A stretch of DNA of 34,531 nt, from positions 1-34,531 of the forward strand of contig JACMQW010000020.1 of NCBI GenBank assembly GCA_014376785.1, given 5' to 3'. Positions 3,638 to 27,759 of the stretch are shown one piece after another. The notes beneath the pieces were generated by a model. The model was not told the origin of the DNA. It saw only the letters and a program-made list of their open reading frames with translations, and did no database searches. This DNA is from Oligoflexia bacterium. GTDB taxonomy: Bacteria > Bdellovibrionota > UBA1018. Each line of letters starts with the position of its first letter. Positions within the stretch are counted from its first letter, which is position 1. The position numbers and the translations under genes are program-made.

Positions 3638-5422
3638 CTAAAGAGGCAACTTAACACTAACAATAGTGCCTGATAAAATTCCATTTTTGATTTCAAGTTC
3701 TCCGCCAAAAGACTTCACTGTTTTAAGTGCGTGGAATAAACCCAAGCCCGATCGATTTCCTGAGCTGACAAACCCATGCGTGTTAAAGCCTTTAATTGCC
3801 TCTTCACTTATTCCGGGTCCATTGTCGGAAATCTCGGTAATCAACCACTTCCCTAAGATTTTAGACTCCACTTTGATAATGGCGTCGAATTCACATGCTT
3901 CGACGGCATTATTGAGCAAATTAGAGATCACCCTACAAATTTCGCTAGAGCTTATCGTCATGGTTACGGGCAAAACTACATCGGAATGAAATCGTATATT
4001 TTTCTGTGGGTATTCGATTTTTTTAATTTCAACTTGTTCCCTAAAAATTTGTAGTAAATCCAAAATTGGTTGCTCATATTTTGAATTACAGGACTCTTCT
4101 AGGGAAGAACAAATATTCGAGATCTGCTTTGTGGCAGCAACAGCCAACGAATAAACTTCAGCATCCATACCGATCCGATTCTGAATTTCTAAAAGATTCT
4201 TGAAAGCCGCAACAGGTGAGCGCAAGTCATGCAAAAGTTGCTTCGTAAATCGGTCCACAAATTCACCTTTTTGTTCCGCGGCGGCGGCGGTATTTGCTTT
4301 GCTTGCTAAATAAATAATTGAAGTAAGAATTAGCGGAGGGTCCAAATATCGGTTCATATACGGATATGAAAAGCGAATCACAAAATAAAACTCTGCAATA
4401 ATTTTTGCAGAGTCCAAAATTGTTCCTATTGATAAAAGAATGCTTGCCGCAATTAATGAAGTACCCACAGGAGAAGACGGACCAAACCGCATTCTTTCTG
4501 AAACCACAACGAAAACTGTCCAACAAAACACAAAGTTTACTATTAAATAGGCCACCAACTGAACTCTGTAATCAGTCACGATGACCGCAGCAGTACAGAA
4601 CACTACAACTAAGCTTAATTGCTTGGTTTTTTTGCGTATTAATTTATCTCCAATTTCAGATGCGCGAAGTAATAATCGAATTGAAGAAATACCTGCGAAT
4701 GACCTTAACGCGAGATGCGCATAACTCCCAAAAACTGGAAACCAAAATCGAAGTAATCCTGACAAGGAAAAATAGAATATTGCCCACAGAACACTGGCTT
4801 CAACAAACCCATAGATTAATCGGTCATTAGTGTCGCCGGGTATTCGATAGCAAAAGAGCACGATAGCGATTAAAGAAAAAAGCGCGAATAAAAACAACGG
4901 AATATACTTTTCTCTTACAACAAGCCCTTCTCTGTCCCCTAATAACTGGTCGAAACTTCCGAATCTTAAACGAGAATAGGAGAGCCCAGTGAAGATGGCT
5001 CTCGGTGAATCAATTTCTAGCCTCAATGTAAAATCTTTAAAATCGCGTAATCGAATTACCGGACCAGCCTTCGAATAGTCACCACTGGTAACAAACTCCA
5101 CCGTTGAATTGACTATAATTTTCTTTAGGCCTGGTATCCCGGGGACCATGAAAGCTGGATCGTTGATCTTCGTATCTTGAAAAAAACGTTTGATTTCAGA
5201 ACCAGGAATTTTTGCTTCGTAACTCCCAATGCAGCACTGAATATTCTTCGGGATCTGGCGCCAAAGCGGACCACTATCCAACACCGGAATTCTGGAATCC
5301 GAGCCCTCTGGAATAAAGACCCACGTCAAAAGCCCAGACCCTGGCGTGAACTCGGAATCATGTGCTGCGAAAGCATGACCACAAAACGACATCGCAATTA
5401 ATAAAATCAGAACTTTAATCAT
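3638..5422 (-). CDS. Membrane sensor histidine kinase with periplasmic domain and about seven helices
   Basis: The protein has a signal peptide (1-19), a periplasmic region to about 172, then about seven hydrophobic segments (about 173-370), and a cytoplasmic kinase. This order resembles the 7TMR-DISM family of receptors for extracellular ligands, though that domain name is an inference from layout. The kinase has the phospho-accepting H-D-L-R-S-P motif (H398), an N box L-L-N-N-A-V-E-A (about 502-509), D-N-G-P-G-I-S (533-539) and G-L-G-L-F (559-563), so it should be active. No response regulator gene is adjacent, so its partner is unknown. It is the last gene of an AT-rich minus-strand run, 62 bases after the transporter gene. 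Confidence 0.85.
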   Translation of the reverse strand: MIKVLILLIAMSFCGHAFAAHDSEFTPGSGLLTWVFIPEGSDSRIPVLDSGPLWRQIPKNIQCCIGSYEAKIPGSEIKRFFQDTKINDPAFMVPGIPGLKKIIVNSTVEFVTSGDYSKAGPVIRLRDFKDFTLRLEIDSPRAIFTGLSYSRLRFGSFDQLLGDREGLVVREKYIPLFLFALFSLIAIVLFCYRIPGDTNDRLIYGFVEASVLWAIFYFSLSGLLRFWFPVFGSYAHLALRSFAGISSIRLLLRASEIGDKLIRKKTKQLSLVVVFCTAAVIVTDYRVQLVAYLIVNFVFCWTVFVVVSERMRFGPSSPVGTSLIAASILLSIGTILDSAKIIAEFYFVIRFSYPYMNRYLDPPLILTSIIYLASKANTAAAAEQKGEFVDRFTKQLLHDLRSPVAAFKNLLEIQNRIGMDAEVYSLAVAATKQISNICSSLEESCNSKYEQPILDLLQIFREQVEIKKIEYPQKNIRFHSDVVLPVTMTISSSEICRVISNLLNNAVEACEFDAIIKVESKILGKWLITEISDNGPGISEEAIKGFNTHGFVSSGNRSGLGLFHALKTVKSFGGELEIKNGILSGTIVSVKLPL

Positions 5423-5484
5423 GGAATAATCTGACTATAAATTGATCGAAGTTGAATAAATTACGATTTGAATACCGCATAAAT

Positions 5485-6396
5485 CTATCTTCCGGCGGAA
5501 TTGGCCAGATCGCGCTGATTTTCTTTTTCCGAACTGATTGCAGCCAATTTGCCTCTTTTAAGATCGCAATAACTAAAAAAATATCGGGACGGAATTAAAA
5601 GCGAAAATATCGCTAATCCTGTGAGCGAGCTTCCCGAAAGATTATTGAAATCGCCCTGTAAGAGAATCGACCATGGGACCCTAGTAAGAGTTATTGCACC
5701 GACTACTGGACTGCTCAACTTTTCGCACATTATAAAATAACTGATCTGCGTAAACATTGAAAGTAAACCAAGCAGGGAGAATCCGCCCACTAGGTTCCAT
5801 GACCACAAAATTTCGCGCTTGAATAAAATTGCCTGAATCAAAAGCCCTGCTGAAAAGAACGTCAGTGACAGCGCGACACTTTTCAAATTGAACGATCTAT
5901 TTGATGAAATCTTTTTCGTCATTGAGAGGGTCAATCCCTGCAAGAGACCGCTGAAAAATGCACTTGTTGGAAAAGAGTTCGATGAATTTATCGCGAATGA
6001 TGCGACCATTGCCATGAAGAGAAAGACTAAATCTCCAATCGAAATTTTTTCTGAAAAGACTAATTTAGATATTAAAATAGCGGATAGCACCCCTGCCACA
6101 CTTGCGCCAAAGCCTACAGAAACCCCAAACAGAAAAATGCTTCTTATAAGAAGAATTTGCGAAACGGAAAAAGAAATAGCTCTCAGAAAATCGATTCGTG
6201 TCAGTGCTGCTGAAGATTTGAATCGATCGGCATTAGACGCCCCCCACGTTAGCGCCGCTGCAAGCATGATTCCAAATGCGAGCCCTGCGAAACCATATTG
6301 AACTTGAACGAACTTCAAGACCGAATACGTGATCGTGACTAGCAATCCGTAAAGAAAGAAATAAGCAGCTTCAATTATCAAACTCTTCTGGGTCAC
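5485..6396 (-). CDS. EamA/DMT-like membrane transporter
   Basis: A 303-aa protein made of about ten hydrophobic segments with short loops, the size and pattern of the drug/metabolite transporter superfamily (EamA-like), whose members export small metabolites or amino acids. No substrate-defining motif is visible. The start is a GTG at 6396, only 13 bases after the stop of the PilZ/acyl-transferase gene, which implies co-transcription. The position suggests it could move the product of the upstream enzyme; that is inference. The C-terminal tail is hydrophilic and positively charged in part (C-D-L-K-R-G-K). Base composition is AT-rich like the rest of the cluster. Confidence 0.72.
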   Translation of the reverse strand: MTQKSLIIEAAYFFLYGLLVTITYSVLKFVQVQYGFAGLAFGIMLAAALTWGASNADRFKSSAALTRIDFLRAISFSVSQILLIRSIFLFGVSVGFGASVAGVLSAILISKLVFSEKISIGDLVFLFMAMVASFAINSSNSFPTSAFFSGLLQGLTLSMTKKISSNRSFNLKSVALSLTFFSAGLLIQAILFKREILWSWNLVGGFSLLGLLSMFTQISYFIMCEKLSSPVVGAITLTRVPWSILLQGDFNNLSGSSLTGLAIFSLLIPSRYFFSYCDLKRGKLAAISSEKENQRDLANSAGR

Positions 6397-6409
6397 TTAT
6401 CTAATCCAC

Positions 6410-7840
6410 TTAAGTTAGCAACTTTGATAGAGTGCGCAGCACATTTATTCTCGCAACTTCCATCGGACTAAGCTGAAGAATTTCCTGGTCCATCAAGTAG
6501 TCTACAATTCCTGAAAACATGCGCTTCCAGTCCCGAATTTTGAGACCGTACCCCAGTACAACTTTGTGAATATCTAGGACAATAATTTTGCTCTCGTCCT
6601 GTTTAAGCGCTTGGCTCACGTACGAAATATCCGTGATTGTCCAACCGGACTTCTTGTAAAAATCGAGGAGAGAGCCTGCCGCACCGCCAACAACATATCG
6701 TCTGTCTGCTTTCACTGCTAACAGGACTATGTGTGACACAATCTCAAACATAACGTCAGAACCTCTCACGGAGGGAGAAGTGCAGATTCGTGAACATTCG
6801 ACATATTCCCAGGGCTTGGGAAAACCCGCGGGAAATTCTGTGTATCGACCAAACTCTGTTTGATCTCCTAGATTGTGGAGCATAAGCCGAGCACTGCCAA
6901 CCACTTTGGAATTTTGTTTTACCGCAATTATTTTTGCCATCGAATCAAATTGATCCGTCATATCGAACCGCGTTTTATCTTTAGAAATTTTCCCCGCGCC
7001 TGAGTATGCTTCTAGTCGAAGGCTAAGCACCTCTTCAAACTCTTCCGCTGTTTTGACGTACGAATAATCGAGCCACTTTGCCGACTTTTTTACCGGGAAA
7101 CCTTCTGCCTTCAACGCGGGCAAACTGACGTCGCGGCCAAAATTTAATAGATATTCGCTCAACGTTTCGAATACAAAATTATCAGCTCCAATAAAAACAC
7201 ACCCTAAACTCAGAACGTCTTCTTCGCCAAAAGAAACTCTGTCGATATTTCTAACTTCGATTTTCACAGTCAAGCTTCCGACCATGGGTAAATTCAAAGC
7301 GCAATCCATACGCTGTTTTACGGTAATTGTTTTATTTCGTAGACTCGTAATAATTTTGAGACCTGAGTGAGAAATCTCAACAACTCTAAAAAATATAAAG
7401 TCATTATAACCAACCGGATTGGGAGCTGTCCCGGTAGGAAGGTATTTTTCGAGGCAGGTCCATCGTTTCTTCTCTCTTTTTTCAACGTATGGAGAAATAG
7501 CCTGCTCTTTTTGGAAGGTCCGGAAAGCGAGATTATATTTTCCGTCGGAAAAATCGTACTTTACAAGTTTAGCAGAAAGCTCGATTTGCTGCTTCCCAAC
7601 ATTCATCCTTAGTTCATATGAGCTTTGCTGCGGGGGCATAGAAGAGGTCGAGACTTCTACGCCGACTGGAGACATCCTCAAAACCTTGGAATCGATATTT
7701 GTTGCGCCCTGTTGAAGGATAATTACCTTCACCTGCTCATTGAAGTCGATCGATTTCGACTCGAATGGAAGGTGCACGCTTTCGGATAATTCAGGCAAGG
7801 AACCTAAGCTACTTGCTGCAGCTGCAACTCTTTTAACCAT
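6410..7840 (-). CDS. PilZ-like domains fused to a LuxI/FeeM-like acyl-transferase domain
   Basis: Residues about 30-110 and 122-238 form beta-rich segments resembling PilZ. The second has R-E-K-K-R (122-126) and E-I-S-H-S-G (155-160), a near match to the c-di-GMP motifs RxxxR and (D/N)xSxxG. Residues about 262-430 resemble the GNAT-fold autoinducer or N-acyl amino acid synthases (LuxI/FeeM): S-L-R-L-E-A-Y (272-278), D-Q-F-D (296-299), V-V-G-S-A-R-L (313-319), E-C-S-R (348-351), and a later Y-K-K-S-G-W. That family transfers acyl chains to an amino compound. The ATG lies inside the end of the cyclase gene (37-base overlap), suggesting translational coupling. The acyl-transferase assignment is by motif only; catalysis and ligand are unproven, and a more distal start would not change the domains. 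Confidence 0.68.
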   Translation of the reverse strand: MVKRVAAAASSLGSLPELSESVHLPFESKSIDFNEQVKVIILQQGATNIDSKVLRMSPVGVEVSTSSMPPQQSSYELRMNVGKQQIELSAKLVKYDFSDGKYNLAFRTFQKEQAISPYVEKREKKRWTCLEKYLPTGTAPNPVGYNDFIFFRVVEISHSGLKIITSLRNKTITVKQRMDCALNLPMVGSLTVKIEVRNIDRVSFGEEDVLSLGCVFIGADNFVFETLSEYLLNFGRDVSLPALKAEGFPVKKSAKWLDYSYVKTAEEFEEVLSLRLEAYSGAGKISKDKTRFDMTDQFDSMAKIIAVKQNSKVVGSARLMLHNLGDQTEFGRYTEFPAGFPKPWEYVECSRICTSPSVRGSDVMFEIVSHIVLLAVKADRRYVVGGAAGSLLDFYKKSGWTITDISYVSQALKQDESKIIVLDIHKVVLGYGLKIRDWKRMFSGIVDYLMDQEILQLSPMEVARINVLRTLSKLLT

Positions 7841-9228
7841 TTTAAGTTCTCGCTAATTGTTAGGTGTTTCAGATTATTTAAAATCAGCAATTCGTTAAGT
7901 GCATCGATATTAGGTTTCGACATCTCGAACGAGTAAACGCTCTTCGAACTAATGCCTTTCACTTCCAAGTCAAATGCTAAGGGTTGCACAACTACGGTTT
8001 TCGAAAAGGTTTCAAATAGATTTGCTGCCTCGTTAGAAAGCAAAATTAGCTTCTTACCTCGATAAATTTCGCTGAATTCTGGCGTGTGCGATATTCGATC
8101 TATTCTGTTTGTTTCATTGGCAGGTGATCCGTGAATAGAAATCTCCACTTGGTCCGATCCGCCAATCTTTCCGATCTGGCAAGATCCATAGCCTACCGTA
8201 AAATAGCGCGTTGTCGCCCCTTCTGCTTCGCGAGAATTAATCTCTTCGATAGAACAAAAACACGCATCTGCTATCGCGGTCAGAAGAGCTTCTTCTGGAT
8301 CTTGTTTTTCATAAAAACAAAATAATCCGTCGCCAATAGTTCTAGCGACTGCTCCGCTAGCCGCTATTCGATTCACAAATCTTTCTACCGGACCGATTAA
8401 TTTGATTTTGACCTGTGATTGCGAATCTGAAATTTTTGAATAATCGATCAAATCCGAATACAAAATCGCAACTTTTTGAACTCGCATCCGTTCAATATCA
8501 TCTAATGCCGCTGCGAGCGTTTTCCCACTTGAGATATCTTTTTCAATTCTAGCCATAAGAGCAGATGGAATGTATCGTTTCATCTGTCGCTGAAATTCTA
8601 TTTTTTCTTGAATAGAGTTTGCTACCGTCTCCCTGTGGGATAACTCTAGATTTCTAAATTCAGCCCAGAATTTGGTTAGAATCTGTGCAATCCCAAGAAT
8701 AAGAATTCCTAGTACGCAGGTAGTGATCATCACCTGATCGCTATGCTGATTAGACCAAAGACCTTTTTCTAAAACGATGGCTGCGGTGAGTATTGCGGCC
8801 GCTAAAAAATAGTTTCTAATTCCCACCACGAGAAATAGGAGCGGAAAATAGAAAATCCATTCCGCCCTGATTTTTTGGCCAAAGATCATTGAGAAAGAAA
8901 CTAAATAACTGGTAATCACCGCGTTTAGAACAGAAGCAATCCTCAAGTACGAGGGCCACTTGGTAAATACTATTTTAAGAAGAAGAACATTAATTATTAA
9001 TGTCGAAGCGAAAGCGACCCGGTAAGCCTCCCACGCTTCGAAGTTGTGTTTCTTCGTATCCGTTAGATAAGCAAACCCTAGATAAGCTACTGCCCAAAAG
9101 ATTGAGGCGTATACAAATAAAGTCGACGAAATTCTTAGTTCATCCGACCGGACTTGGCGTTGATGTCGGCCCGAAACCACAGAAAGAGGATTCCAAAGCG
9201 CAATGAGTAGATCCAAGATTCTTTGCAC
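7804..9228 (-). CDS. Membrane-anchored class III adenylate/guanylate cyclase
   Basis: About six hydrophobic segments fill residues 35-190, followed by a helical linker and a class III nucleotidyl cyclase domain (about 250-400). Metal-binding aspartates are visible at D259 in L-Y-S-D and D300 in T-I-G-D-G. The transition-state pair N371 and R375 sits in A-N-E-T-N-R, equivalent to the family's VNxAAR. These residues argue for an active enzyme making cAMP or cGMP; the choice cannot be made by eye. The start is a GTG at 9228. It is the first gene of the four-gene minus-strand cluster and is divergent from ileS across 154 bases that must hold both promoters. The sequence is AT-rich. Confidence 0.85.
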   Translation of the reverse strand: MQRILDLLIALWNPLSVVSGRHQRQVRSDELRISSTLFVYASIFWAVAYLGFAYLTDTKKHNFEAWEAYRVAFASTLIINVLLLKIVFTKWPSYLRIASVLNAVITSYLVSFSMIFGQKIRAEWIFYFPLLFLVVGIRNYFLAAAILTAAIVLEKGLWSNQHSDQVMITTCVLGILILGIAQILTKFWAEFRNLELSHRETVANSIQEKIEFQRQMKRYIPSALMARIEKDISSGKTLAAALDDIERMRVQKVAILYSDLIDYSKISDSQSQVKIKLIGPVERFVNRIAASGAVARTIGDGLFCFYEKQDPEEALLTAIADACFCSIEEINSREAEGATTRYFTVGYGSCQIGKIGGSDQVEISIHGSPANETNRIDRISHTPEFSEIYRGKKLILLSNEAANLFETFSKTVVVQPLAFDLEVKGISSKSVYSFEMSKPNIDALNELLILNNLKHLTISENLKWLKELQLQQVA

Positions 9229-9382
9229 TCTTTCTCTTCGGGTCGAATTTTTAATTTCTTAATAATTATGCGGCCTATCTTGTCGTCGACGTCATGACAC
9301 GTATATGCTTAAAGCAGCAATTTTCTTATATCTGAACCTCCTACCTTCCCTTTCCCCCACCTTTTCGCTAAGTTAACCCCCT

Positions 9383-12300
9383 ATGTCGCTCACCCGGGAA
9401 CCTGGTAAAAAGCTGTTCGAATCTGTTCGCTCCGACGTCTCTCTCCCTGCCGAAGAAGAGAAGATTTTGACGTTCTGGGAGAAAAACAAGATTTTTGAAA
9501 AATCAGTCGGCCTTCGCGAAGGCGCTGACACGAGTGCGACGGCGAAATCTTTTTCCTTCTACGACGGCCCTCCTTTCGCGACCGGACTTCCTCATTACGG
9601 CCACCTCCTCGCCGGAACGTTAAAAGACATCGTGCCTCGCTACTGGACGATGAAAGGCTATTCCGTACCTCGCCGATTCGGATGGGACTGCCACGGTCTA
9701 CCCGTCGAATTCGAAATCAATAAAACCCTCGGCATCAAATCTAATAAAGATGTCCTCGAGATGGGCGTCGCCGCCTATAACTCCGCCTGCCGCGGAATCG
9801 TCCAGCGCTACTCCGAAGAGTGGAAGCGCACGGTTAAAAGAATTGGTCGCTGGGTCGACATGGAAAACGCCTACTTCACGATGTCTCCCGAATACATGGG
9901 ATCCATTTGGTGGGTTTTTAAACAGCTTTACGATAAAGGCCTCATCTACGAAGGTTATAAAGTCGTTCCCTATTCGACAGGCCTCTCGACTGCGCTCTCG
10001 AATTTCGAAGCAAACCTCAACTACAAACAAGTTCAAGACCCCGCCGTCACCGTCGCCTTCCCCATCAAGGGCCAGCCGAATACTTCGCTCCTCGCTTGGA
10101 CGACCACCCCCTGGACCCTTCCTTCGAACATGGCACTCGCCGTCCACCGCGAAGCCGACTACGTTCGCATCCGAGAAAATAATCCGGCCGATGGAAAGCC
10201 CGCGCAAGAATACATCCTCGCAAAAGCGCTCTGGAAAAATCCCTTCGGAAAAGATGCCGAGAAAAACTTCACGATCACCGAAGAACTAAAAGGCTCCGCA
10301 CTCCTGGAAATGAAGTACGAACCCCTCTTCGATTACTTCGCTGATAAAGAAAACGACGGTGCCTTCCGAGTCATTCACTCCGACCACGTCACGATGGATT
10401 CCGGAGTCGGCATCGTGCACATGGCACCTGCATTCGGGGAAGACGATTACTTCGCTTGTCAGAAAAACGGAGTGCCGCTCGTAAACCCCGTCGATGACGA
10501 CGGAATGTTCACCGCGGCCATCGGAAATTACTCCGGCAGGCGTGTGAAAGATGCGGATAAAGACCTGACCTCTGAAATCAAAGCGAAAGGTCGCCTCGTA
10601 AAACACGACACCCTAGAACACTCCTATCCCTTCTGCTGGCGCACCGACACGCCCCTCATCTACCGCGCGGTCTCGAGCTGGTTTGTGCGGGTCGAAGAAA
10701 TTAAAGAACGCCTGATTGCGAATAACAAAAAAACGCGCTGGGTACCCGAACACCTCCGCGACGGTCGTTTCGGAAACTGGTTAGAAAACGCCCGCGACTG
10801 GGCGATTTCTCGGAACCGCTTCTGGGGAACGCCGCTTCCGATCTGGAGAAATGCCGAAGGCGAGATGATCTGCATCGGCTCGGGTGAAGAACTCGCGAAA
10901 CTTTCCGGCCAGACCATTACCGACCTGCACATGGACTCGATCGACTCCGTAACCATTCCATCCCCTACCGGAAAATCTCCTCTGAAACGAATCGTGCCCG
11001 TGCTCGACTGCTGGTTCGAATCCGGATCGATGCCTTACGCACAGTGGGGCTATCCGAAAACCAATAAAGAAATCGCCGAGAAAACGTTTCCGGCCGACTT
11101 CATCGCCGAAGGACTCGACCAAACTCGTGGTTGGTTCTATACTCTGATGGTCATCGGAACCGCGCTCTTCGATGAAGCGCCGTTTAAGAACGTGATCGTG
11201 AACGGACTGATTCTCGCCGAAGACGGTAAGAAGATGTCGAAGTCCCTAAAAAACTATCCCGATCCAAACGAAGTTCTGAATCGGCACGGCGCAGACGCCC
11301 TCCGCCTTTACATGATTAATTCTCCCGTCGTGAAAGCCGAAGAACTTCGCTTCTCTGAAAAAAGCGTCACCGAAGTCGTGCGGAAAATCCTCCTCCGCTG
11401 GTGGAACTCCTATGCGTTCTTCGTCAATTACGCGAATGTCGACGGCTTCGTACCGAATCCGAAATTGAACCCCGGCGAGAGCCCGAACCCACTCGATCAG
11501 TGGATTCTCTCCCGCTTAAACTCCCTCATTCGAAACACCGAAGCCGAGATGGAAGGTTACCGACTCTATAATGTCGTTCCTCACCTCCTCGGCTTCGTCG
11601 AAGAACTCACGAACACTTACATCCGCTTTAACCGCTCCCATTTCTGGGCCAGTGGAATGCCGGAAGATAAAACTTACGCCTACGAGACCCTCTACCTCGT
11701 TCTGACGACGCTCTCGAAAGTGCTCGCACCTTTCGCACCGTTCATGTCTGAAACCATGTTCCAGAATTTGAAAGCCGGCCTGCCGAAATCCGCCGAGTCC
11801 GTGCACTTAGAAGATTTCCCGCACGCGGACGTTTCCCTCATTCGGCCAGAGCTCGAAGAAGCCGTAAAAGTCATGGACGCGCTCGTGACCCTCGGTCGAA
11901 ATCACCGTGAGAAGATTAAAGTGAAAGCGAAAATTCCGCTCCTCACGATGAAGATCATCCACCGCGAGAAAACCGTGTTAGCTAACCTCCGGAAATTCGA
12001 AACGTATTTCGGGGACGAACTGAACATTCGAAAAATCGAGTACCTCTCGAATGAGGACGACTACGTTGCGATCTCGGCGAAAGCGAATTTCCAAACCCTC
12101 GGAAAACGACTCGGGCCGAAAATGAAAGCCGTAGGATCCGCCGTCCAGAAACTCGCGCTCTCGGATCTCTTAAAGCTCGAAAAGGGCGAAACGATCACGC
12201 TCGAAGGCGAAGAGATCACCTTCCGCGATGTCGAGATCCGGCGCGCAACCAAAGGCGAGAATAAAGACCTGGCCGTCGATTCGCTCGTCTCGATCGAAGT

Positions 12301-17144: not shown

Positions 17145-18269
17145 ATGTCGAAAACTCCTGCCATGGCTCCCGTCATTTCCGTAAATAAAGTTCGCCGCTC
17201 CTTTCGCTCCGCCCAAAAAGGCGAAGGCTTGAAGGGAACGTTTGAGCTTCTGTTAAAACCAAAATTCACGGACCACCATGCCCTGAAAGAAACGACCTTT
17301 ACGATTGAGCCCGGATCATTCGTCGGACTCATCGGAGCAAATGGCGCGGGAAAGACCACGCTCCTGAAAATTCTCGCAGGCCTCATCCCGCCATCATCCG
17401 GCGAAGCCAAGGTGCTGGGGTTTACTCCTTTTGATCGCACCATGGAGTTTCGACATGCGATCTCGCTCGTCATGGGTCAGAAGGCGCAGCTTTGGTGGGA
17501 CTTACCTGCTACCGATGCGTTTGATCTGCTGAAGGCCATTTACGAAATCCCAGAAGACAAATACCGCGAGCGACTCGAGACCCTCTCCGAACTCCTCGAT
17601 GTGAAGCGACTCCTCCAAACCCAAATTCGAAGGCTCAGTCTCGGTGAGCGGATGAAGATGGAACTCATCGGTGCTCTCCTGCACTGGCCGAAAGTGATTT
17701 TCCTCGATGAGCCGACCATCGGATTAGACGTACTCGCTGCCGAAAAGCTTCGGGACTTTCTAAAGACGTTTAACCAAAAAGAGAAAGCAACCATCATCCT
17801 CACCTCCCACAACATGGACGACATCGAGCGCCTCTGTTCACGAGTGATGATTCTGAAAAGCGGAGAAATGATTTTCGATGGCTCTCCAAACCGCCTCGTG
17901 CGGGAGGGCGAATGCCGACTGCGCATTCGGTTAAAAGAAACGTTCGATATCCCCACCCTTTCCCAGATCACGGGCATCGCTGAAGCAAACATCACGGCCG
18001 TCAGCGAGAACGACGATGCTGAAGAAGATGAGGACGAGAAAGAAGAATCGGCGGATTCTACCGCGGGCGGTGCCGAGGGTCCGGCAACGATTCCGACCTT
18101 CTATTTCGAGACGACCAAGGAAGCTGTTTTGAAAATCCTTCAGGCCCTCATGGGCAAGGGCACCGTCCTGGATATGGGGATCGAAGAACAAAGTCTCGAG
18201 AGCGTCATCCAACGCATTTATGCCGACGGAGTCGTCTCTGATAAAGGCGAGGCTGACGTCCGTGTCTAG
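17145..18269 (+). CDS. ABC exporter ATP-binding protein (ABC-2 type)
   Basis: The ATPase has Walker A G-A-N-G-A-G-K-T-T (64-72), signature L-S-L-G-E (164-168), Walker B V-I-F-L-D-E-P (184-190) and a switch histidine H222 in T-S-H-N-M-D-D. The NatA/DrrA-like arrangement and the two permease genes directly downstream make it the motor of an ABC-2 exporter. A highly acidic, low-complexity insertion (about 286-305, runs of Asp and Glu) interrupts the C-terminal regulatory region and is unusual. The stop overlaps the likely GTG start of the first permease. Substrate unknown. Confidence 0.93.
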   Translation: MSKTPAMAPVISVNKVRRSFRSAQKGEGLKGTFELLLKPKFTDHHALKETTFTIEPGSFVGLIGANGAGKTTLLKILAGLIPPSSGEAKVLGFTPFDRTMEFRHAISLVMGQKAQLWWDLPATDAFDLLKAIYEIPEDKYRERLETLSELLDVKRLLQTQIRRLSLGERMKMELIGALLHWPKVIFLDEPTIGLDVLAAEKLRDFLKTFNQKEKATIILTSHNMDDIERLCSRVMILKSGEMIFDGSPNRLVREGECRLRIRLKETFDIPTLSQITGIAEANITAVSENDDAEEDEDEKEESADSTAGGAEGPATIPTFYFETTKEAVLKILQALMGKGTVLDMGIEEQSLESVIQRIYADGVVSDKGEADVRV

Positions 18270-19098
18270 TGCTTCGGCTTCGCCACGAGGCGTACGAAAG
18301 TTTTTTCATTACGAATGGCGTCTGGCCGCACTGAAAAACGGATTTCAGGATGCCACTGCCTACCGCATCGAGTTTTTGCTCGAGGTCTTAGGCGCTGCCC
18401 TCATTCCTGCCGCCATTCAGTGGGTGCTTTGGTACGCGCTTTTTAAGATCGGCGGTCAAACGACGGTCGGTGGGCTCACCTACGAGCAGATGTTGGCCTA
18501 CACGTTTACTTCGATACTCTTCACCCAAGTCCGCGGCGGAGACCATGATTTCGAACTCATGGAGATGGTCCGCTCAGGCGGACTCTCAAACTACCTCCTT
18601 CGTCCCGCAAGCGTGGTGGAGTTCGTGTACATCCGAGGACTCGCGCCGAAGCTCTTCCTCGCGGGACTCAGTCTGCTCATCGGAGTGCTCGTCTCTTTCT
18701 TCGTCGATTCGATCTCGGCCGGAAGAATGGTGGCGGCAGTTTTCCTAGCCGTGCTGGGAAACATCATCCATTACCAAATCGGCGCGGTCATCGCGACGCT
18801 GTCCTTTTACTGGGAAGAGGCTTACGCCGTTCTCATGGTGAAAAATATGGTCGTTCAAATCCTCTCCGGCGAGTTGATTCCTCTGAATCTGTTTCCGGCC
18901 AGCATGGAATGGATTTGGAAGTCGACTCCGTTTTACCTCTACGTCTACGGCCCCACTCAGTACGCGCTCGGTCGGTGGTCGCATGTCGAGTTTATGAACG
19001 CGGTGGGCGTGGCGATGATTTGGATTCTCGGCCTCTCGATCCTCACCCACTGGTCTTGGAGACTCAGCATCAAGCGCTACCTTTCGCTTGGGGGCTGA
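18262..19098 (+). CDS. ABC-2 family permease 1
   Basis: About six membrane segments in 278 aa, beginning with a charged stretch F-F-H-Y-E-W-R-L-A-A-L-K. The pattern fits the ABC-2 family transporter group (PF06182/DUF990-like) that occurs as permease pairs with one ATPase. The frame is open from an ATG at 18220, but the GTG at 18262 is preferred: a GAGG lies nine bases upstream and the start overlaps the ATPase stop by eight bases, as in coupled translation. Conserved-looking features include V-R-G-G-D-H-D-F-E-L and L-L-R-P-A-S. Confidence 0.88.
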   Translation: MSSASASPRGVRKFFHYEWRLAALKNGFQDATAYRIEFLLEVLGAALIPAAIQWVLWYALFKIGGQTTVGGLTYEQMLAYTFTSILFTQVRGGDHDFELMEMVRSGGLSNYLLRPASVVEFVYIRGLAPKLFLAGLSLLIGVLVSFFVDSISAGRMVAAVFLAVLGNIIHYQIGAVIATLSFYWEEAYAVLMVKNMVVQILSGELIPLNLFPASMEWIWKSTPFYLYVYGPTQYALGRWSHVEFMNAVGVAMIWILGLSILTHWSWRLSIKRYLSLGG

Positions 19099-19183
19099 AA
19101 CCTCGGGTTCTGAATTTTGAGTTTAATTTTGGGATGAGTTTGGTTTGGGTTTCGGCTTTGTTTTTCGTTACGGTTTTGTTCTC

Positions 19184-19188
19184 GGAGG
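19184..19188 (+). promoter_or_regulatory. Ribosome binding site fixing the start of permease 2
   Basis: GGAGG lies seven bases before the ATG at 19196. It rules out the ATG at 19145, which would add a hydrophobic Phe/Gly-rich leader with no such site. Confidence 0.75.
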
Positions 19189-19195
19189 TTTTCTG

Positions 19196-19993
19196 ATGAT
19201 TCCGGTTTTGAAAAAGTACTCAAACGTCTTTGCGGTCCAATTTAAGAACAACTTCGTTCGAGAAGCCGTCTACCGCTCAAACTTCCTGACCATGCTTTGT
19301 GTGGACTTAGTTTGGATCGGGGTTGAGTTCTCGCTCTTCACCGTCATCTACGCAAACACGAACTCGCTCGCGGGCTGGTCTAAGGAACAGGTCTTCTTCT
19401 TTCTCGGAGTTTTCTTCGCAAGCGACGCCCTCTTCACGACTTTCTTTCAGAAGAACTTCTGGAACTTTTCAGACCTCATTAATAAGGGTGAACTCGACAT
19501 CCTTCTCACAAAACCCATCAGCCCTGTTTTCTTAGCCCTGACTCGGTGGATGAGCCTCACTTCGATCTTCAATCTCTTCCTCGGGATCGGGATCACAATC
19601 CGCTATTCCCATGCAGCGGGGTTTGCCGGCGGGATTCGCTGGGCAATGCTTCCTTTTTGGCTTCTCGTCGGACTCGCGACTGCACTGATGCTTCGATTCG
19701 CGTTCTCAGTTTGGGTCTTTTGGACGGATCGCTCTTGGGCTCTGTCACGTCTCTACTACCAGTTCTTCCACTTCGCGACGAAGCCCGACGCGATTTTCCC
19801 CGTGATGATTCGGTACACGATCATGACCGCGCTTCCGTTTGCGTTCATTGGTTCGGTCCCAACACGAGCATTGCTCTACGGACTTCACTTTCAGGAATAC
19901 CTGCTCGTGGTGGTGGTTCTCTTGGTGTTCTTCTTCGCGAATTCTTTCGTTTGGCGCCGGGGACTGGCTCGCTATCAGAGTGCTTCGTCTTAA
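19196..19993 (+). CDS. ABC-2 family permease 2
   Basis: The second membrane subunit of the exporter, 265 aa, with about six hydrophobic segments and the motif G-E-L-D-I-L-L-T-K-P-I-S-P, equivalent to the S-N-Y-L-L-R-P-A-S region of permease 1 and typical of this permease group. The start is set by the GGAGG at 19184-19188. The stop codon abuts the first copy of the 16-base palindrome (19994). Two different permeases suggest a heterodimeric channel. The family includes a characterised viologen exporter, but the substrate here cannot be inferred. Confidence 0.88.
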   Translation: MIPVLKKYSNVFAVQFKNNFVREAVYRSNFLTMLCVDLVWIGVEFSLFTVIYANTNSLAGWSKEQVFFFLGVFFASDALFTTFFQKNFWNFSDLINKGELDILLTKPISPVFLALTRWMSLTSIFNLFLGIGITIRYSHAAGFAGGIRWAMLPFWLLVGLATALMLRFAFSVWVFWTDRSWALSRLYYQFFHFATKPDAIFPVMIRYTIMTALPFAFIGSVPTRALLYGLHFQEYLLVVVVLLVFFFANSFVWRRGLARYQSASS

Positions 19994-26910: not shown

Positions 26911-27759
26911 ATGGGATTAAGAATAAATACAAACGTGCCGGCCCTCATTGCGCAGAGAAATTTGCGCAACACGCGTGCCTCGCTCGACACCACTTTAGAG
27001 AGACTCAGTTCCGGCTCCCGCATCAACCATGCAGGTGACGATGCTGCCGGACTCGCCATCTCTGAGAGCCTGCGGGCCCAAATCAGAGGACTCGGCCAAG
27101 CGGAGAGAAACTCTCAAGACGGAATCTCACTCGTTCAAGTCGCCGAAGGCGCGATGAGCGAAGTCTCGAACATGCTCATCCGGCTCCGCGAACTCGGAGT
27201 GCAAGCTGCCTCTGACACCGTCGGACCGACTGAACGCGGATTCCTCAATCTCGAATTCACACAGATGCTTTCTGAAATCGATCGCATCGCAAAAAGCACC
27301 AAGTACAACAACGTTCCACTCCTCGACGGAACCGCGCAAGCTTTCGAAATTCAAATCGGCACCAGCAATAATCCACTCACTGACCGAGTGAAACTCTTCG
27401 ACACCAGCGCTGCAGATACGAGTGTGGTTGCGCTAGGAATGAACTTGGCTACCGTCGCCGATAAAACGAGTGCACAGAACTCGCTCGCCTCGATCGATCA
27501 GGCCATCGGATCAGTCACTTCGATGCGTGCAACATTCGGCGCACTTCAAAACCGACTCCAATCGGTCATTAGCAACATTCAGATCTCGAAAGAAAACATG
27601 TCTTCGGCAAACAGCCGAATTCGAGATGCAGACGTCGCAGAAGAAGCGACGAATCTCACTCGAAACCAAATTCTCATGCAAGCCGGGACTTCGGTTCTGG
27701 GACAAGCGAATTCAACCATCAAAACAGCACTACAACTTTTAGGAGGCGGTCAAGGTTAA
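26911..27759 (+). CDS. fliC: Flagellin 1
   Basis: The major filament protein, 282 aa. The N-terminal D0/D1 part reads M-G-L-R-I-N-T-N, L-S-S-G-S-R-I-N-H-A-G-D-D-A-A-G-L-A-I-S. The C-terminal D1/D0 part reads S-S-A-N-S-R-I-R-D-A-D-V-A-E-E, Q-I-L-M-Q-A-G-T-S-V-L-G-Q-A-N. The central variable domain is short, so the filament surface is minimal. The AAGGAGG site is strong. A paralogue follows. Transcription is probably sigma28-driven and the product is exported by the flagellar type III system. Confidence 0.96.
   Translation: MGLRINTNVPALIAQRNLRNTRASLDTTLERLSSGSRINHAGDDAAGLAISESLRAQIRGLGQAERNSQDGISLVQVAEGAMSEVSNMLIRLRELGVQAASDTVGPTERGFLNLEFTQMLSEIDRIAKSTKYNNVPLLDGTAQAFEIQIGTSNNPLTDRVKLFDTSAADTSVVALGMNLATVADKTSAQNSLASIDQAIGSVTSMRATFGALQNRLQSVISNIQISKENMSSANSRIRDADVAEEATNLTRNQILMQAGTSVLGQANSTIKTALQLLGGGQG

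Follow-up and report, generated by a model that had tools for sequence, protein, structure and literature searches.

Several parts of the locus described here have been studied separately. Nas343 and Nas354 are PilZ-containing N-acyl amino acid synthases (NAS) (Thies 2016, PMC4897644), and NasP is a NAS described as directly activated by cyclic AMP (cAMP) (Clardy & Brady 2007, as cited in PMC4897644). In stieleriacine clusters, methyltransferases are encoded beside NAS genes (PMC12479983). With regard to sensing, the function of adenylyl cyclase membrane domains has been termed "still an open question," with lipids as recent candidate ligands (PMC12414865). Lipid ligands of such domains have been described (PMC11606603, PMC12505454), fatty acids and anandamide elicit a response from the six-transmembrane-helix (6TM) domains of the mammalian enzymes (PMC11606603), and in an artificial fusion of the 6TM receptor CqsS to a class III cyclase the CqsS part controls the cyclase (PMC4821796). 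A convergence from cAMP to cyclic di-GMP (c-di-GMP) is known in Bdellovibrio (PMC6717892). The present locus is a four-gene cluster of an Oligoflexia bacterium (Bdellovibrionota; GCA_014376785.1), located at positions 3638-9228 of JACMQW010000020.1. The window, meaning the whole stretch analyzed, is this one entire contig of 34,531 nucleotides, from a 3.2-Mb genome in 103 contigs. The cluster encodes a membrane cyclase, a PilZ protein with a NAS-type domain (PilZ-NAS), a putative transporter, and a sensor histidine kinase. An earlier note, made from the sequence alone, suggested that these gene products form one circuit making, exporting, and sensing an acylated signal under second-messenger control, and knew of no described system with this gene set; likewise, we did not find the combination in the open-access literature (subscription papers and preprints lay outside the search). 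We found that the cyclase and PilZ-NAS genes are linked in several bacterial groups, a result that is well supported, and that this pair is the core of the locus, with exporter, kinase, and tailoring genes being replaceable.

The four genes and their predicted products

The features of the cluster are as follows, with the basis of each assignment in parentheses.

3638..5422, minus strand: sensor histidine kinase, 594 aa, with putative signal peptide, periplasmic domain, multi-pass membrane domain, and kinase core
4319..5359, minus strand: sensor region of the kinase, residues 22-368 (homologous to a cyclase sensor in genome G047, 25% identity, 2e-16)
5485..6396, minus strand: polytopic membrane protein, EamA/DMT-like putative exporter, 303 aa (homologue in genome G036; hydrophobic segments over most of its length)
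6410..7840, minus strand: PilZ-NAS, a YcgR-like putative c-di-GMP receptor fused to a NAS domain, 476 aa (Pfam, relatives, predicted fold)
6524..7075, minus strand: FeeM/LuxI-fold acyltransferase domain of PilZ-NAS, residues 256-439, with R275, D296, D299, R318, E348, and R351 (model and alignment)
7181..7477, minus strand: PilZ domain with RxxxR (R122, R126) and ExSxxG (E155, S157, G160) (motif, relatives, model)
7505..7738, minus strand: YcgR-N-like beta domain, about residues 35-112 (fold matches)
7804..9228, minus strand: membrane class III nucleotidyl cyclase, 474 aa (family profile, conserved residues, model)
8089..8487, minus strand: catalytic domain of the cyclase, residues 248-380 (PF00211 match at 248-380)
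8584..9228, minus strand: membrane sensor domain of the cyclase with six helices, residues 1-215 (the model shows six long helices; present in 10 of 359 phylum genomes)

Open reading frames (ORFs) were laid out with a simple longest-ORF caller, and their coordinates reproduced the close packing that the earlier note had described, including the 37-base overlap and the 13-base and 62-base gaps. The gene types it had named were also recovered by profiles, relatives, and predicted fold, with the transporter as the weakest assignment.

The synthase fold of PilZ-NAS is well supported by the AlphaFold model (mean pLDDT, 84.7). Residues 256-439 aligned with FeeM (2g0b) over 166 of 170 residues (Z, 17.3; root mean square deviation, 2.6) and with the acyl-homoserine lactone (AHL) synthases LasI (Z, 16.3) and TofI (Z, 16.4) over 172-176 residues; ordinary GNATs reached similar Z scores but mostly with shorter alignments. 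Among Pfam models, the best match, above its cut-off, was Acetyltransf_5, a family that also covers lipid N-acyltransferases such as OlsB. The FeeM model scored 20.1 bits on the window protein against a cut-off of 27, with its homologues at 27-43 bits, and relatives of PilZ-NAS passed both the FeeM and the PilZ models. Because Autoind_synth scored only 17.4 bits against a cut-off of 24, the label of AHL synthase was dropped. Across 26 PilZ-NAS sequences, E348, R275, and D299 were kept in all, and D296, R318, and R351 were each kept in 25. E348 was equated with Glu95 of FeeM by motif and fold rather than by residue superposition, and Nas354 uses the corresponding Glu in catalysis (PMC4897644). 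The N-terminal region, up to about residue 220, matched the c-di-GMP receptors YcgR and MrkH (Foldseek, 1e-9 to 1e-6) and has the YcgR-N plus PilZ fold; the signature motifs RxxxR and [DN]xSxxG were found in 25 and 24 of the 26 sequences, respectively. PilZ-NAS is thus a predicted N-acyl amino acid synthase with a putative c-di-GMP receptor part. Separately, a stand-alone GNAT-type protein encoded next to a PlsC-like acyltransferase (locus L006, 459-2016; a by-eye reading) is reminiscent of OlsB/OlsA.

The cyclase by itself matched PF00211 weakly (0.0048), and the profile of its family matched CyaB at 1.8e-16. Both metal-binding Asp and the transition-state residues of class III enzymes (D259, D300, N371, and R375) were invariant in 24 cyclase sequences. 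At the positions governing nucleotide specificity, Thr is retained (Ser in the window), and the Lys position is Arg in 23 of the 24 with a neighboring Lys in 20. In the predicted structure, of moderate confidence (pLDDT, 72.7), the protein looks like one half of a membrane adenylyl cyclase of mammals (AC9, AC5), with a CyaB-like catalytic part. Its product would be a cyclic nucleotide, probably cAMP.

The histidine kinase was recognized by HATPase_c (9e-15), an HDLRSP H-box, and a marginal HisKA match (0.057); PrsK stood first among the NCBIfam matches listed for it, and LuxN was not among them. The transporter can be called EamA-like only, since the EamA Pfam model did not match the window protein and its G036 relative matched EamA (PF00892) at 1.7e-5, with 25.5 bits against a curated cut-off of 28.2.

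The base composition sets the cluster apart. The sample counts given earlier were exact (16 of 60 G+C at 4381-4440; 33 of 60 at 10501-10560), and along the window the cluster is a low-G+C island of 41.5% compared with 52.0% for the remainder; beyond position 9300, every 5.6-kb stretch has a G+C content of at least 49%. Together with patchy occurrence and a variable genomic slot, this makes the horizontal acquisition suggested in the earlier note plausible rather than proven. Promoter-like sites were no more frequent than in shuffled sequence, and terminator-like sites were just slightly above the shuffles.

Linkage of cyclase and PilZ-NAS genes and exchange of their companions

We examined 51 PilZ-NAS loci from Bdellovibrionota, Gammaproteobacteria, and Anaeromyxobacter, several of them in contig-limited bins, and 43 of them had a cyclase either fused to PilZ-NAS or encoded no more than one gene away. 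In 15 of the 33 loci of the phylum, the cyclase gene adjoined that of PilZ-NAS; in 7 the two were fused, in 5 one gene separated them, and in 6 no cyclase was found. The other 18 loci (Pseudomonadales, other bins, and two Anaeromyxobacter species; mostly gammaproteobacterial) had a 6TM cyclase directly upstream in 16, usually overlapping, the exceptions being the two Anaeromyxobacter species. Since the relatives have just 1-7 class III cyclases per genome, we estimate the probability of chance adjacency at well under 1% per locus, and chance was rejected as an explanation. The pairing extends to fusion: in seven Bdellovibrionota genomes (loci L073-L076 and L078-L080), PilZ, NAS (FeeM), GAF, and class III cyclase domains occur in one protein of about 1157-1184 aa. 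Three types of cyclase sensor were seen, namely, the 6TM domain, a soluble region with a membrane segment and GAF, and 7TMR-DISM, with the fusion proteins using the GAF type.

Membrane sensor domains are shared between cyclases and kinases at these loci. Of the 10 occurrences of the 6TM domain among the phylum genomes, 8 are on a cyclase adjoining PilZ-NAS, one is on a kinase in a cyclase-kinase operon of genome G328 (discussed below), and one, a weak match, is on a lone kinase. In the two Anaeromyxobacter species, the domain is instead carried by a histidine kinase-receiver-HD-GYP protein adjoining PilZ-NAS (L090, 8031-10778; L094, 8037-10784), an arrangement that ties the module to c-di-GMP turnover. 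The sensor of the window kinase is in turn related to that of the G047 cyclase, and this kinase aligns from sensor to kinase core with one adjoining a G031 cyclase. One sensor exchanged between two outputs suggests a common cue for the cyclases and kinases involved. Kinases were also found close to the pair in 11 loci of gammaproteobacterial type; their N termini are related, but they vary in position and orientation. Three of these kinases were tested and matched LuxN best (9e-30, 4.7e-36, and 8.7e-27; next best, 1e-19 to 6e-21), in the kinase core only and at 94-124 bits against the LuxN equivalog cut-off of 1550. The possibility that their sensors are 6TM domains was rejected, as no match was found.

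The companions of the pair vary. The exporters recurring beside PilZ-NAS loci are of the MMPL/HAE3, EamA, or MFS kind; gammaproteobacterial pairs are surrounded by an MMPL/HAE3 exporter, a class I methyltransferase, and a kinase, and Bdellovibrionota and Anaeromyxobacter loci have PEMT/ICMT-like methyltransferases (the Anaeromyxobacter one recognized by motif). Heme-oxygenase-like (PF14518) enzymes between or beside a GAF-type cyclase and PilZ-NAS were also noted (L067, 7611-8270; L069, 7082-7753; L063, 7572-8243) and may be tailoring enzymes. Taken together, the genes at these loci may have synthase, tailoring, export, and sensing roles. The earlier expectation of co-occurrence beyond chance holds for the cyclase/PilZ-NAS pair and more weakly for the transporter and kinase. 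Genome G036 is the only other one in which all four kinds lie close together; there, the transporter gene is convergent and is separated from the kinase gene by a transposase.

In genome G001, of the same genus (ileS 78% identical to that of the window), the slot between manC and ileS (L118, 2167-10653), which is the one that the cluster occupies in the window, has a G+C content of 43-48% compared with 57-64% in the flanks. Its genes encode a methyltransferase, an EamA-like transporter, an unknown protein, a PilZ-like protein (termed PX) whose C-terminal domain is different, a cyclase-like protein, and a kinase of the 7TM type. This set is analogous to that of the window, with a sequence likeness that is almost unrecognizable. 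PX proteins (L118, 4848-6410; L130, 8428-10047; L146, 2-1273) have a cyclase alongside in most loci examined, and related modules occur in G031, G016, G040, G047, and G328, the last being the PX-cyclase-kinase operon with the 6TM kinase mentioned above. The cyclase assignment in these modules is partly motif based, the Pfam domain being absent in the G001 protein and found in the G047 protein. The C-terminal domain of PX was matched by no Pfam model and no NAS profile, and the idea that PX is a diverged NAS was therefore rejected; the EamA-like proteins of the two module types likewise gave no convincing profile match to each other. By-eye readings of a transposase-like ORF (L008, 12243-13346) and a tyrosine-recombinase-like ORF (L134, 11256-12191) adjoining modules are in line with mobility. 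Elsewhere in the window, we noted a flagellin gene (26911-27756) and, at 17145-19993, an ABC ATPase with an ABC-2 type membrane gene (ABC2_membrane_6) in a region of strong AT skew (-0.33).

Proposed function and rival explanations

We propose that the locus works as a variable cassette for the synthesis, export, and sensing of a lipid signal under second-messenger gating, a reading that we hold to be evenly balanced between right and wrong. We infer its product, direction of regulation, ligand, export step, and kinase role as follows. PilZ-NAS would take a fatty-acyl chain from acyl-ACP or acyl-CoA and attach it to an amino acid or a comparable amine, and its YcgR-like PilZ part may make this acylation depend on c-di-GMP. 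The six-helix cyclase could respond to a hydrophobic cue, with the acyl-amide product or something akin to it as the simplest candidate, and its cyclic nucleotide (probably cAMP) may feed back on synthesis directly or via c-di-GMP turnover. The EamA-like protein would export the product, and the histidine kinase could be a second reader with a transcriptional output. In outline, the circuit first suggested fits the comparative data better than the rivals considered because of linkage and fusion across phyla, recurring exporters, tailoring enzymes, and kinases, the LuxN-best kinases, and shared sensors. The fixed four-gene order did not stand, as it was seen in the window alone. A bolder form, in which a c-di-GMP-gated NAS supplies the ligand for both its own six-helix cyclase and a kinase with an exchangeable sensor, thereby defining a new family of lipid cell-cell signaling, is tentative and on balance doubtful. 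If true, it would give the membrane domains of 6TM adenylyl cyclases their natural cognate ligands and show sensor and synthase diversifying as hypervariable cassettes.

Several observations besides gene order weigh against the proposal. The FeeM score of the window protein is under the curated cut-off, its PilZ motif carries Glu in place of the Asp or Asn of relatives, and the window cyclase has Arg-Thr where relatives carry Arg-Lys. The second domain of the G001 PilZ-like protein is not recognizable as an acyltransferase, and the sensors of the gammaproteobacterial kinases show no detectable relation to the 6TM domain. Six phylum loci have no nearby cyclase, although in four of them the gene is at or near a contig end. 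Finally, the four-gene cluster contains no response regulator gene, and its EamA-like gene has no further match in the 359-genome phylum draw, though a relative exists in G036.

Among the alternatives, the strongest is that the product is a structural or surface-active acyl-amino-acid lipid (a biosurfactant, an aminolipid, or an aid to predation or motility), its amount set by c-di-GMP and the cyclic nucleotide, with the transporter moving the lipid, the kinase sensing the state of the envelope, and no signal passing between cells. The Acetyltransf_5 match of PilZ-NAS, to a family with lipid N-acyltransferases among its members, speaks for such a lipid, and the MMPL/HAE3 exporters and PEMT-like enzymes encoded next to its relatives suit lipid handling. 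Moreover, the production of N-acyltyrosine biosurfactants in E. coli has been tied to Nas343 and Nas354 (PMC4897644). However, sensors shared by cyclases and kinases, LuxN-like kinases, and strong divergence in the same slot within a genus look more like signaling, and we consider a purely structural role somewhat improbable.

It is less probable still, and in our view unlikely, that the unit is only the cyclase/PilZ-NAS pair, with the EamA-like gene and the kinase as chance neighbors in a low-G+C island. Only the window has them in exactly this arrangement, neither gene adjoins the pair in most Bdellovibrionota loci, and the isolation of the EamA-like gene in the phylum draw is in keeping with chance. 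Yet both genes lie within 4 kb of the pair in G036, the G001 analogue also has EamA and a kinase beside its PilZ-like protein and cyclase, an EamA-like gene overlaps the cyclase gene in G047, and the kinase by the G031 cyclase module aligns with that of the window. That the acyltransferase domain is an ordinary GNAT acylating proteins or small amines, making the locus a plain second-messenger output node without lipid chemistry, appears very unlikely. Ordinary GNATs are indeed among the top fold matches, but the alignments with FeeM and with AHL synthases (the latter over 165-183 residues) are longer than those with most of them, the conserved charged set and the catalytic Glu (role from PMC4897644) match the NAS/LuxI type, and PilZ-NAS homologues exceed the FeeM cut-off.

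Comparison with known systems

The lipid-signal cassette proposed here has precedents for its parts in Nas354, NasP, 6TM cyclases, and LuxN. PilZ-NAS shares the same type of catalytic Glu with Nas343 and Nas354; in those proteins, however, NAS precedes PilZ, the reverse of the window order, and a single PilZ part takes the place of YcgR-N plus PilZ. No cyclase, transporter, or histidine kinase is mentioned in the main text of the paper describing them (PMC4897644). NasP, as far as the citing paper describes it, is similar in coupling NAS activity to a cyclic nucleotide, whereas PilZ-NAS has no recognized cyclic-nucleotide-binding domain and instead has a cyclase as the product of a neighboring gene or as a fusion partner. 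FeeM, LuxI, LasI, and TofI resemble residues 256-439 in fold and conserved charged residues, but the window domain sits behind a YcgR-like module and falls below the Autoind_synth cut-off. The LuxM/LuxN pair likewise combines a synthase with a membrane kinase, and the LuxN core is the best match of the gammaproteobacterial kinases. Unlike that system, ours has second messengers built in, no LuxM homologue shown, and a match confined to the kinase core.

The closest likeness for the cyclase is to 6TM class III cyclases such as Rv1625c and the mammalian enzymes, which combine a six-helix membrane domain with a class III catalytic domain, and to CqsS-type receptors, in that a 6TM unit is found on both cyclases and kinases. 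In contrast to these cyclases, that of the window adjoins a gene for a predicted acyl-amide synthase, which points to a candidate cognate ligand, and the CqsS-cyclase chimera was artificial. The distinguishing feature of the locus would thus be a natural pairing in which a 6TM cyclase lies beside, and a cyclase is sometimes fused to, an enzyme that should make an acyl-amide lipid, so that a candidate ligand can be made and tested. More broadly, c-di-GMP, cyclic nucleotide, and acyl-signal chemistry would be joined in one module across several bacterial groups.

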